From positions 1 through 30,389 of the IMG/VR virus record IMGVR_UViG_3300008050_000190: 30,389 bases of DNA, one strand, 5' to 3'. Shown piece by piece: positions 25,667-30,389 of this stretch; the first letter of the stretch is position 1; every line of letters begins with the position of its first letter. Origin of the DNA: a virus. The notes below the pieces were generated by a model that saw only the letters and a program-made list of their open reading frames with translations, searched no databases and was not told where the DNA came from. The position numbers and the translations under genes were made by a program.

Positions 25667-25986
25667 ACACGGTTAAACTGGCGCGCACAGTCATTAATTG
25701 GTGCAGGAACTTCTTTTATATTTCTGAGGATGTAACTATAAATTTTAAAATTGATATTTATGAAGACCTTGACTGCTGGGGGGACTGTGAGCAAACAGAT
25801 GATAAAACGTACATGATACGGGTTTCCGACAAGCAGGGGCTGAGAGATTTTGTTGCCACTATCGTCCATGAGTTTGTCCATATAAAACAATGGGAAACTG
25901 ACAAATGGGACGGGGACGGAGAAGCAGAGGCAAATCAGTTGCAGTATGCTGTTACAGATAGGATGTGGTCAGAGGGTGTTTTATGA
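25663..25986 (+). CDS. Small HExxH metallopeptidase-like protein
   Basis: 107 residues. The central IVHEFVHIKQWETD carries the zinc metallopeptidase motif H69-E70-x-x-H73, followed about 14 residues later by GEAEANQLQYA, where E87 or E89 could be the third ligand. It resembles small phage or SprT/gluzincin-like domains and is shorter than typical proteases, so it may be a minimal domain. Acidic residues dominate the N-terminal half (DIYEDLDCWGDCEQTDD). It overlaps the membrane gene and gene 46 by four bases each. The substrate is unknown. Confidence 0.6.
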   Translation: MNTVKLARTVINWCRNFFYISEDVTINFKIDIYEDLDCWGDCEQTDDKTYMIRVSDKQGLRDFVATIVHEFVHIKQWETDKWDGDGEAEANQLQYAVTDRMWSEGVL

Positions 25987-27695
25987 TATTATTCAAAACA
26001 CTTTCTTGGCGAAATTTCCTATCAACGGGAAACTATAAAACGACATTAGATTTAACTAGACATGAGAACACTTTAGTCTCGGGTGATAATGGTGCTGGTA
26101 AATCAACGATGCTTGATGCATTAACCTTTTCCCTTTTTGGAAAATCGTTTCGTGGAATTAATATTCCACAACTGCCCAACTCTATTAACGAAAAGAATTG
26201 CGAAGTAGAAATTGAATTTGTAATAGGGAAAGATGAGTATCGTGTTTTAAGATGTCTTAAACCAAAAAGGTTTGAGATATACAAGAACGGTGATTTGTTA
26301 CCACAGGATTCCAAGTCAAAAGACTATCAGAAAATTCTCGAAGAACAAATTCTTAAGATGACATATAAGTCATTCTGTCAGGTGGTTATTCTGGGGTCTT
26401 CAAATTATATTCCGTTTATGCAACTTACCGCAGCAGATCGCCGTTCGGTTGTTGAGAACTTGCTAGACATTGATGTGTTTTCTGTGATGAACGCATTGGT
26501 AAAAACTAGAATCAATCTTGTTCGGGAATATATCAAGGATATAGATCATAAAATAGAACTCACCCGAAGCAAAACAGAAGAGAAGAAAAAACTAATAGAC
26601 ACGCTAGAGAAGAAATCTACTGACTCGGTGGAGAAGCACAATAAGGAAATAGAAACTTCTTTGTCTCAGATAGAAGAATTGACTAGAGAACGGGACGAGT
26701 TGCAGAAACTAATAACGGAAAACTTGGATAGTATAGAAGACAGAGAATCAACCCCTAAAGATTTATTGAAAATGGAATCTGAACAAGAACAATTAAAGTC
26801 TAAGATAAAGATGATAGATTCTGGTCTTAAGTTTTATGATGAAAACGATACCTGCCCATCATGCAAGCAAAATATTGAGGTGCATCATAAGAACTGCATA
26901 CTGAAGGAGAAGGGAGAAGAAAAACAGAAACATGTCTCGCAGATGAATGAATTATTGACGGACATTGAACAGATGGAAGAGCGGTTAAGTAAAATTAATT
27001 ATGTTTTGGGGGATGTTAGACTTCTTGAGAAAAATGTTTCCGAGAAGCAAAGTAGAATTGGCGGCTTAAACCAATACATTAATAAAATGAAATGTGAACG
27101 AGATTCATTGCTTACAGAGGGAACAGAAGTTTCGGTTGCAAAAGAGGAATTTAACACTCTTATAAATGAGGGAAATGGTTATGTCGAGAACAGAAAAAAT
27201 TTAATAGAAGATCAACATTATTATAAGATAGCAACTGGTATTTTAAAGGATAGTGGAATCAAGGCAAAGATAATAAAACACTATCTTCCAGTTATGAATA
27301 AGTTGATTAATAGATATCTAGTAGAAATGGATTTCTTCTGTCAGTTTAATCTGGATGAAAATTTTAACGAGACAATCAAGAGTCGTCACCGCGATGAGTT
27401 TACATATCATAGTTTCAGTGAGGGTGAACGGTTGCGTATTGACCTATCCCTACTTCTTTCTTGGAGAGAAATTGCACGGCTGAAGAATAGTGTTAGTTGT
27501 AATCTGTTGATTCTGGATGAGGTGTTTGATTCTAGTTTGGATTCTGTTGGTACAGAAGAATTTTTGAAATTGTTGGTGACATTTGGAACCCGTGCGAATA
27601 TATTTGTCATCAGTCACAAGTCTGATTCAATGACGGACAAGTTCCAGAATCATATTGTGTTTGAGAAGAAGAACAACTTCAGTAGGATAAAATGA
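25983..27695 (+). CDS. gp46: Recombination nuclease subunit gp46 (Rad50/SbcC-like)
   Basis: SMC-like ATPase partner of gp47. The ATG at 25983 overlaps the preceding stop and gives 570 residues (T4: 560); the upstream in-frame start is inside the neighbour. Walker A GDNGAGKST (K40), long coiled coils on either side of a zinc-hook CPSC (C291, C294), ABC signature FSEGERLR (S479), Walker B LLILDEVFDSS (D512, E513) and the following SHK switch are all present. The last 24 bases, including the stop, form one copy of a 28-bp direct repeat that reappears after the next gene. Confidence 0.95.
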   Translation: MILFKTLSWRNFLSTGNYKTTLDLTRHENTLVSGDNGAGKSTMLDALTFSLFGKSFRGINIPQLPNSINEKNCEVEIEFVIGKDEYRVLRCLKPKRFEIYKNGDLLPQDSKSKDYQKILEEQILKMTYKSFCQVVILGSSNYIPFMQLTAADRRSVVENLLDIDVFSVMNALVKTRINLVREYIKDIDHKIELTRSKTEEKKKLIDTLEKKSTDSVEKHNKEIETSLSQIEELTRERDELQKLITENLDSIEDRESTPKDLLKMESEQEQLKSKIKMIDSGLKFYDENDTCPSCKQNIEVHHKNCILKEKGEEKQKHVSQMNELLTDIEQMEERLSKINYVLGDVRLLEKNVSEKQSRIGGLNQYINKMKCERDSLLTEGTEVSVAKEEFNTLINEGNGYVENRKNLIEDQHYYKIATGILKDSGIKAKIIKHYLPVMNKLINRYLVEMDFFCQFNLDENFNETIKSRHRDEFTYHSFSEGERLRIDLSLLLSWREIARLKNSVSCNLLILDEVFDSSLDSVGTEEFLKLLVTFGTRANIFVISHKSDSMTDKFQNHIVFEKKNNFSRIK

Positions 27696-27696
27696 T
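27669..27696 (+). repeat. 28-bp direct repeat, upstream copy (3' end of gene 46)
   Basis: Begins AAGAACAACTTCAGTAGGAT and is identical over 28 bases to 28165-28192. In this copy it encodes the last seven residues and stop of gp46 (NNFSRIK) and supplies the AGGA ribosome site and ATG of the methyltransferase gene. Confidence 0.97.
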
Positions 27697-28186
27697 GGGA
27701 ACAGAACAAATAGGAATGGGTGTTGTTGGTGCAAGTAGATCTATAGAATACAGCACACCATTAGAAATAGTAAATCCTCTCATAGAAGAATTTTCTTTAA
27801 CGAGAGATGTTTGTGCAAGTAAAGAAAATTACAAATTAGATAATTACTGGACTATTGATGATGACGCATTATCAAAAACTTGGGATGGTAACTGTTGGAT
27901 GAATCCTCCATTCGACAGAAAATTGGGAACATGGGTTAGAAAAGCACATTCAGAGAGATATAGTGGAACAAAGGTATGTTTGTTTCCTGTTAGAGCAAAT
28001 ACTAAATGGTGGGCAGAGGTTTGTGTCGATAGTGAAATTAGATTTATAAACGGCGAAGTAAATTTTAATAATGAACATAGAGGATTGTGGGCAGCGATGT
28101 GTATTATGATTTTTGGTGAACAAGCAAAGGTAGGCACATTTTCTGTGATTGATTATCGTAAAAAAAGAACAACTTCAGTAGGATAA
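27692..28186 (+). CDS. dam: Phage DNA N6-adenine methyltransferase (Dam-like)
   Basis: Transfers a methyl group to adenine N6 in DNA, commonly used by phages to resist restriction. The 164 residues include the phage Dam-family pattern: SIEYSTPLEIVNPLIEEF, DVCASKENYKLDNYWT, CWMNPPFDRKLGTWVRKA (NPPF catalytic motif at 71-74), LFPVRANTKWW and HRGLWAAMCIMIF. The family is a small single-domain enzyme, so the length is complete. The ATG overlaps the gene 46 stop. The gene is flanked by 28-bp perfect direct repeats, and its last seven residues (RTTSVG preceded by K) are the gene 46 tail read in another frame. This suggests it was inserted as a cassette. Confidence 0.88.
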   Translation: MMGTEQIGMGVVGASRSIEYSTPLEIVNPLIEEFSLTRDVCASKENYKLDNYWTIDDDALSKTWDGNCWMNPPFDRKLGTWVRKAHSERYSGTKVCLFPVRANTKWWAEVCVDSEIRFINGEVNFNNEHRGLWAAMCIMIFGEQAKVGTFSVIDYRKKRTTSVG

Positions 28187-28192
28187 AATGAT
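28165..28192 (+). repeat. 28-bp direct repeat, downstream copy
   Basis: Identical to 27669-27696, offset by exactly 496 bases. In this copy the sequence ends the methyltransferase gene in a different reading frame. It also recreates an AGGA-ATG start opening a nine-codon frame (MIPFFGDI, stop at 28213-28215). Confidence 0.97.
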
Positions 28193-28217
28193 ACCATTTT
28201 TTGGAGATATATAAGAT

Positions 28218-28544
28218 ATGGCAAAGTACAAAAACAATCTATCATATGCGCAGTATATAAAGGAGGGGCTTCTATTGTTAAGTTCTAACTTGGGTGTGAA
28301 GGTATATAAACGAGCGGGTGGTGATCCTCAATTAAAAATGACTTTTGATAAGGATTTGGATTATAGGGTTCTGTTTACTTGGAGGGGTGAAGCAATACAA
28401 AATAGTCAATTTGTAGTTGATAGGCAATTTTGGAATATGTTAAATACTAATGATGGCAATAGAGATCATATGAGAAGGTGGGCAGATCCAAAACTAGAGG
28501 CGGTAAAGGACGCTATAGAAAGAGGAAAGAAAAAGAAGACTTAG
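28218..28544 (+). CDS. Hypothetical protein
   Basis: 108 residues, not recognised. Basic overall (ends ERGKKKKT), with mixed alpha/beta appearance: an N-terminal helix (SYAQYIKEGLLLLSSNLG), a strand-rich middle (LKMTFDKDLDYRVLFTWRGE) and a C-terminal helix (DPKLEAVKDAIERGK). There are no cysteine clusters or membrane segments. TTTGGAG lies about 12 bases before the ATG. In the absence of the dam cassette it would directly follow gene 46, so it is probably part of the 55-47-46 unit. It ends one base before the next ATG. Confidence 0.6.
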   Translation: MAKYKNNLSYAQYIKEGLLLLSSNLGVKVYKRAGGDPQLKMTFDKDLDYRVLFTWRGEAIQNSQFVVDRQFWNMLNTNDGNRDHMRRWADPKLEAVKDAIERGKKKKT

Positions 28545-29535: not shown

Positions 29536-30389
29536 ATGATGAGTAGTTTAGTTTATAGAGATGTAATACCTTCTGTTGGCGGAAATCAATTCTTCTATGC
29601 AAGAATATTGGGATGTAGTCATGTGGGTGGTGTTTGGGGTGGTCTTAACGGTGATGTTGTAATAGATGTGATGACTTCCGATAGACAGAAGTATAGTACT
29701 TATGCTTGGGAAGAAGTCACACCCCAACAAACTGGGGGTAAAATTATATGGGCCCGTGGCAACAGGAGTTCGTATTCATTTTACGATCCTTCGTATGATC
29801 CGATTGAACCCGGTGAAACTGAAGATTGGACTAATCCAGAAACAGGGGAAGTAGAACAGGCATGGGTTCCGGGTACAACACCCGATGGTCCACAGTCAGG
29901 ACTTTACTCTGATATTAATACTCTTGATGAATATTTTGAAGACCAATCAATAGAAAATGAAGATGGCAAAAAACCTGATTCGAAGTTTAGAGATAGATCT
30001 CTCTATAGGGAATATGTTGATGAGAAGGTAGATAGAATAAATGATTTGAATGTTGATTATGATCCATTCGCTGGCGAAGACAACCAACAAGATTCCTGGC
30101 CTTCCGATGACCCCGATAATGATTGGTGGGAAGATGCCTTTCCCCCCGGTGACCCCGGTAATGATTGGTGGGAAGATAATATGGATCCGAATAATCCAGA
30201 AACACTGCCGGGGAATACTGGCGATTCGCAAAAAATATTATTCGGCGGCGTTCATGCGTTGAACATATCAGAATATAATAGGTATCATAATCCTGCTTCT
30301 TCTGTGGGTAGTATTGTTTTGATGCAAGAACTTATGGGTGATGGTGGAAGCCCAAAATATTATTTTGATGCCCCGGAAACAAGGACTGC
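29536..30389 (+). CDS. Unknown acidic protein, 3' end outside the window
   Basis: An open frame of at least 284 codons beginning ATGATG (29536 or 29539) and running off the edge, so it is partial. It starts MSSLVYRDVIPSVGGNQFFY and is rich in Asp, Gly, Trp and Pro. A duplicated unit (DNDWWED then GNDWWED) lies around residues 190-214, within an acidic Pro/Asp-rich linker. A second ordered-looking segment (KILFGGVHALNISEYNRYHN) begins near 231. There is no membrane segment or recognised domain. It may be a virion accessory protein like its neighbour. Initiation may use a distant GGAGG bridged by a hairpin. Confidence 0.6.
   Translation, partial: MMSSLVYRDVIPSVGGNQFFYARILGCSHVGGVWGGLNGDVVIDVMTSDRQKYSTYAWEEVTPQQTGGKIIWARGNRSSYSFYDPSYDPIEPGETEDWTNPETGEVEQAWVPGTTPDGPQSGLYSDINTLDEYFEDQSIENEDGKKPDSKFRDRSLYREYVDEKVDRINDLNVDYDPFAGEDNQQDSWPSDDPDNDWWEDAFPPGDPGNDWWEDNMDPNNPETLPGNTGDSQKILFGGVHALNISEYNRYHNPASSVGSIVLMQELMGDGGSPKYYFDAPETRT
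30106..30177 (+). repeat. Two-copy in-frame repeat (30-base unit, 42-base period)
   Basis: Copies at 30106-30135 and 30148-30177 share GACCCC, then AATGATTGGTGGGAAGAT, encoding DPDNDWWED and DPGNDWWED. The period is a multiple of three, so the frame is kept. Confidence 0.85.

Follow-up and report, generated by a model that had tools for sequence, protein, structure and literature searches.

How did a DNA adenine methyltransferase gene come to be enclosed by two exact copies of the end of another gene? In the marine T4-like phage analyzed here, a virus record of 30,389 bp that we refer to as the window, gene 46 (25965..27695, + strand; an open reading frame matching phrog_77 at E 1.5e-163) encodes an SbcC-like recombination nuclease subunit. 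It is followed by dam, an adenine DNA methyltransferase gene (27692..28186, + strand), and then by a gene of family F1 (28218..28544, + strand). The tail of gene 46 is duplicated, with one copy on either side of dam. A sequence-only reading of this locus had taken dam for a recent or selectable gain through a repeat-flanked cassette mechanism, one that could be lost again by recombination between the copies.

The duplicated gene 46 tail

Both copies of the repeat, at 27669..27696 and 28165..28192 on the + strand, read AAGAACAACTTCAGTAGGATAAAATGAT. They are identical at 28/28 positions and lie 496 bases apart from start to start, in exact agreement with the perfect 28-bp repeats and the spacing given in the sequence-only reading. 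Leftward, the match can be extended to 31 nt with one mismatch. No other exact direct repeat in the window reaches 28 nt, the maximum across 100 first-order Markov simulations was 18 nt, and a search of this 30-kb genome fragment found two copies, both at gp46. A separate 42-bp tandem repeat, 83% identical, occurs at 30089-30172 within an open reading frame near the contig end.

The two copies are tied closely to the translation of the genes around them. Copy 1 consists of the final 24 coding bases of gene 46 followed by TGA and T, and its translation gives the C-terminal codons of gp46, K-N-N-F-S-R-I-K, before the TGA stop. The dam ATG at 27692 overlaps this TGA, and an AGGA ribosome site lies just upstream, inside copy 1 and thus within gp46 codons. 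Copy 2 is read by dam in another frame, supplying the end of the protein (..RTTSVG) and the stop at 28184-28186, and keeps the gp46 stop/ATG context. The sequence-only reading had described copy 1 as the last 24 bases of gene 46 plus four more, with the dam ribosome site and ATG taken from copy 1 and the dam end and stop from copy 2, and all of this was borne out. The ATG of copy 2 opens an 8-codon open reading frame, MIPFFGDI (28188..28214, + strand), that was probably left over from the stop/start overlap. Directly 3′ of copy 2, from 28193 on, the sequence is ACCATTTTTTGG.

The dam product

The 164-aa dam product matches PF05869 with an E-value of 1.4e-18 and 67.6 bits, above the gathering cut-off of 28.1, and also matches phrog_111. 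It contains an NPPF motif at residues 71-74, of which N71, P72, and P73 were invariant across 15 aligned sequences. Its AlphaFold2 model (pLDDT 80) was most similar in Foldseek to cap-specific (PCIF1-type) adenosine N6-methyltransferases, with a weaker match to M.TaqI. The protein thus carries the NPPF/Y catalytic motif and, according to the model, a predicted methyltransferase fold. The conserved core reaches ..DYR, and because natural relatives end variously after this point, the tail-derived end of Dam lies outside the conserved core. A Ka/Ks of about 0.1 indicates purifying selection on dam, and PADLOC labels the Dam proteins as orphan methyltransferases. GATC occurs 110 times in the window vs. 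125 expected, which is not a clear depletion and says little about the methylated site. Judging from its methylase family, Dam may protect phage DNA from host restriction, and other uses of the methylase are also possible.

Relatives and the slot behind gp46

To place the locus among its relatives, we compared gp46 loci from viral contigs. The census of tail copies comprised 59 distinct loci, including the window, and gp46 loci fetched later, outside the census, had one tail copy each. Cultured phages yielded no close record: the best gp46 matches came from Synechococcus phages at 46% identity, and Dam was <60% identical in every cultured record. The most informative relatives were two dam-less loci, L001 and L002, with gp46 proteins at 83-84% identity to that of the window. 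Both have gp46, a single tail, and, directly after it, a homologue of the gene at 28218 with a nearly equal spacer. These are the single-copy relatives that the sequence-only reading had suggested looking for, and they speak against its stated counter-case, in which every relative would carry dam between diverged flanks. L023 is also without dam. Moreover, joining the window flanks across the repeat gives the gp46/28218 layout of L001 and L002, in line with the earlier suggestion that recombination between the copies would restore an intact downstream context.

Other relatives carry different genes at this position. F0, a 530-aa PF01555-type methylase, lies directly behind gene 46 in 13 loci and in most cases has its start within the gp46 stop (AAAATGATG). 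At other loci, HNH-like, sugar-nucleotide, nuclease, and unknown genes (names read from the sequences) lie between gp46 and the downstream genes. This variety identifies the gp46 3′ end as a hypervariable slot among these marine T4-like phages. Its usual occupant is the methylase-like F0, which is absent from the slot in the Dam-bearing window and L009, although these numbers are small.

Extra tail copies at other loci

When we searched the loci with a profile of the gp46 tail, extra copies scored 22-59 bits vs. a background maximum of 2.5 bits on 512 kb of reverse strand. Extra copies occurred in 3/59 distinct loci (the window, L007, and L009), all of which had PF05869 genes, and two of these three instances share one dam gene. 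At L007, which belongs to a diverged phage, dam occupies the same site and is 95% nucleotide-identical to that of the window (Ks 0.21, Ka 0.021), whereas the two gp46 genes are 70% identical with a Ks of about 2, which is near saturation. The divergence between the two loci drops at the gp46 stop, from 35/60 identical codons before it to 51/60 after it (p=0.002). This drop counts against a long stretch of gp46 having been transferred together with dam, which we also rejected by sliding identity, as window gp46 near dam was no more similar to L007 than it was to L001.

In L007, a second tail lies between dam and F0, which takes the place of F1, the downstream gene of the window. This second tail matches the native gp46-F0 junction of L016 at all 28 nt, as do 23/24 of the next bases, indicating that the downstream tail carries the start of its neighbor. 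The two L007 tail copies are not identical to each other. L007 Dam ends in ..RKRKNNFSRIK, which is the gp46 C-terminus in frame; window dam differs by one base in an A-rich run and reads the tail out of frame.

The Dam that L009 carries at the same site is a distant one (28% identical in alignment; 56.5 bits against PF05869), and the locus has three tail copies. This Dam also ends in the gp46 C-terminus in frame (..EKKNNFSRIK) and is followed by the second tail, a 51-aa open reading frame, and finally a tail that has diverged. The first two copies match at all 28 nt, and the third departs from copy 2 at three positions. From these sequences, it appears as if the outermost tail were the oldest and the newest insertion the one nearest gp46. 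The third tail opens a 12-codon open reading frame, and a sigma-70-like promoter (TTGACA..TATCAT) and then the next gene follow (L009:4978-5080). At another locus, a 15-bp stretch of the gp46 tail, GAAGAATAACTTCAG, is found where two genes inserted behind gp46 meet (L010:5175-5210). It is possibly an eroded tail copy, with a profile score that was not significant. Among all copies, the right edge is fixed at the gp46 stop/start overlap, and the left edge varies, with a length of 28 nt in the window, about 26 nt in L007, and 40 and about 28 nt in L009.

This anatomy could also reflect a recombinase-free cassette array, in which units of one gene plus a gp46 tail enter again and again at the first tail, stack with the newest nearest gp46, and move from phage to phage as circles or linear pieces by recombination within the tail. 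The two stacked units of L009 follow the order expected from such an array, with copies 1 and 2 identical and copy 3 diverged. One dam unit is found before different downstream genes in the window and L007, and the tails appear to bound the transferred block. However, the differing left edges argue that the units were made separately, only one stacked case was present among the 59 loci, and a free unit was not observed. We therefore consider an array of this kind possible but doubtful.

A second alternative is that a transposon, an integron-like integrase, or a homing endonuclease inserted the gene, either site-specifically or with duplication of the target site. Direct repeats around an insertion would be expected from such an event, free-standing homing nucleases are recognized as agents in T4-like phages (PMC2993671), and some relatives have an HNH-like gene in the slot behind gp46. 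Still, the unit codes for a methylase alone, terminal inverted repeats and a significant hairpin are absent, and the length of the repeat is not constant. Each specific candidate is disfavored: a transposon or target-site duplication (lengths of about 26-40 nt, no terminal inverted repeats, only dam encoded), an integron cassette (weak folding, z −1.2 to −1.5, and integrase absent from the unit), and an intronless homing endonuclease locus (no endonuclease in the unit, methylase only). Insertion by a dedicated enzyme is thus improbable. An assembly artefact or chance repeat, conceivable for a metagenomic contig with a 28-bp repeat close to some assemblers' word length, is the least credible alternative, given that the same anatomy with different sequences occurs at two loci from other metagenomes (L007 and L009), that the L007 copies differ from each other, and that simulated repeats stayed at ≤18 nt.

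Possible source of dam

A possible donor type, with no donor certain, is a 58%-GC phage represented by a contig with a terminase gene (L076/L206). The end of its dam gene (L076:1-160) is 97.7% identical to window positions 28047-28174 over 128 bp, with only the first 10 nt of copy 2 included in the match. Because this contig ends inside dam, it is weak evidence on the donor. The likeness between the sequences suggests transfer between unrelated phages. The 10-bp stretch AAGAACAACT may have been the microhomology used in the join, in which case an L076-type dam would naturally end in ..RKKRTTTLFDENKKA. Alternatively, the L076 phage could have received dam from a T4-like phage along with a piece of the tail. 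Metagenome 3300002518 contained 100% matches both for window gp47/gp46 (L061) and for the L076-type phage (L201).

Further searches for sources and relatives added little. Among relatives of the L076 phage, a search for a fuller dam returned only a single identical partial contig and a single distant relative, and one search of cellular genome contigs found no relative of dam. The search for relatives of L009 Dam returned only L009 Dam itself, and a pattern search for other dam 3′ ends gave unrelated matches apart from L007 and L076.

How dam may have been gained

Overall, we consider it likely, at a probability of roughly 70%, that dam was gained laterally at the hypervariable 3′ end of gene 46, where it recombined into the gp46 tail and the tail was kept. 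The observations behind this explanation are the repeat itself, the empty sites, the presence of the same dam before a different gene, and a second Dam arranged likewise. The empty L001 and L002 sites and the low Ks of dam in L007 relative to gp46 also support a recent gain, as the sequence-only reading had proposed. Its cassette mechanism fared less well: a laterally gained, repeat-bounded gene is what we found, but the variable repeat lengths do not fit a defined mechanism. Together with the lack of a hairpin and of an encoded recombinase, the variable left edge is better explained by ectopic or short-homology recombination than by a dedicated cassette enzyme.

For the recombination pathway and the direction of its steps, we infer the following. 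The start codon of the incoming gene would have been joined to the gp46 stop/start overlap, and recombination at short similarity would have linked its 3′ end with the tail of the resident gp46, leaving one gp46 tail on either side of dam. The second tail would then be retained because it bears the ribosome site and ATG of whichever gene comes after gp46. The neighbor's start is clear in the second tail of L007; the downstream gene of the window has its own GGAG ribosome site and so can start without the second copy. Tail duplication is also not required for insertion at gp46, as a second tail is lacking from most of the other insertions in this slot (F9, F12, F19, F26, and others). Matching tails would permit dam to be lost through deletion between the repeats, a predicted event that makes the gain plausibly reversible. 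A dam-plus-tail unit could likewise enter any relative at the gp46 tail, regardless of the downstream gene. From known T4 biology, a role for UvsX/46/47 in the exchange is plausible.

Comparison with known systems

Short repeats that shuffle accessory genes of T4-like phages are already a known idea, both from PeSL and from T-even loci. PeSL are mobile regulatory cassettes of T4-type phages, reportedly described by Arbiol et al. in 2010 and Comeau et al. in 2014 (both cited in PMC4503421), in which short repeats around accessory genes are thought to promote shuffling by homologous recombination. Short repeated sequences also flank an accessory gene here. However, PeSL units are said to be intergenic, consisting of an early promoter and stem-loop, whereas our repeat comes from the coding sequence at the 3′ end of a recombination gene and includes a stop, a ribosome site, and an ATG. 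We found no terminator or significant stem-loop in the window repeat, which therefore does not have the promoter and stem-loop of PeSL; a weak 9/12 sigma-70-like match reaches into copy 1, from a scan that did not cover the phage early promoter type. For the internal-protein loci of T-even phages, Repoila et al. reportedly described in 1994 repeats of ~70 bp that flank the exchanged open reading frames 5′ and 3′. These loci resemble ours as a polymorphic gene slot with repeats on both sides, but they involve other genes, and the repeat there is a promoter plus inverted repeat rather than a gene tail. In integrons, single-gene cassettes line up behind a fixed site, and every cassette has its own copy of a recombination sequence. 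The stacked single genes here are similar in each having a sequence copy, but the unit lacks an integrase and a foldable site, and its repeat varies in length.

A literature search for direct-repeat-flanked methylase cassettes found nothing. T4-family phages are documented to lose accessory segments by deletion between direct repeats; the cases observed involved unrelated, variable repeats and extended over 6.5-10 kb (PMC5449768). The loss of an accessory segment between direct repeats is the shared feature, although the deletion is only predicted here. Beyond the coding nature of the repeat, our locus differs from known systems in the apparent stacking and in a Dam-only association within this sample.

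A 2010 review of T4-like genomes noted that the junctions of laterally acquired DNA typically do not resemble the signatures of known mobile elements and that clues to the agents are few (PMC2993671). At gp46, by contrast, a junction signature is visible, it accompanies two very different Dam genes, and it can be tested by deletion assays. Because the gene tail bears the translation start of the next gene, the locus also suggests a reason for keeping the duplication. More tentatively, and with less confidence than in the lateral gain itself, the gp46 tail might act as an attachment-like sequence for single-gene units that carry their own tail with the ribosome site and start for the gene that follows, that stack with the newest nearest gp46, and that pass between diverged phages through short homology without a dedicated recombinase. 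In the lateral gain of Dam genes at gp46, the duplicated gene tail is a mark of the exchange and possibly a help to it.
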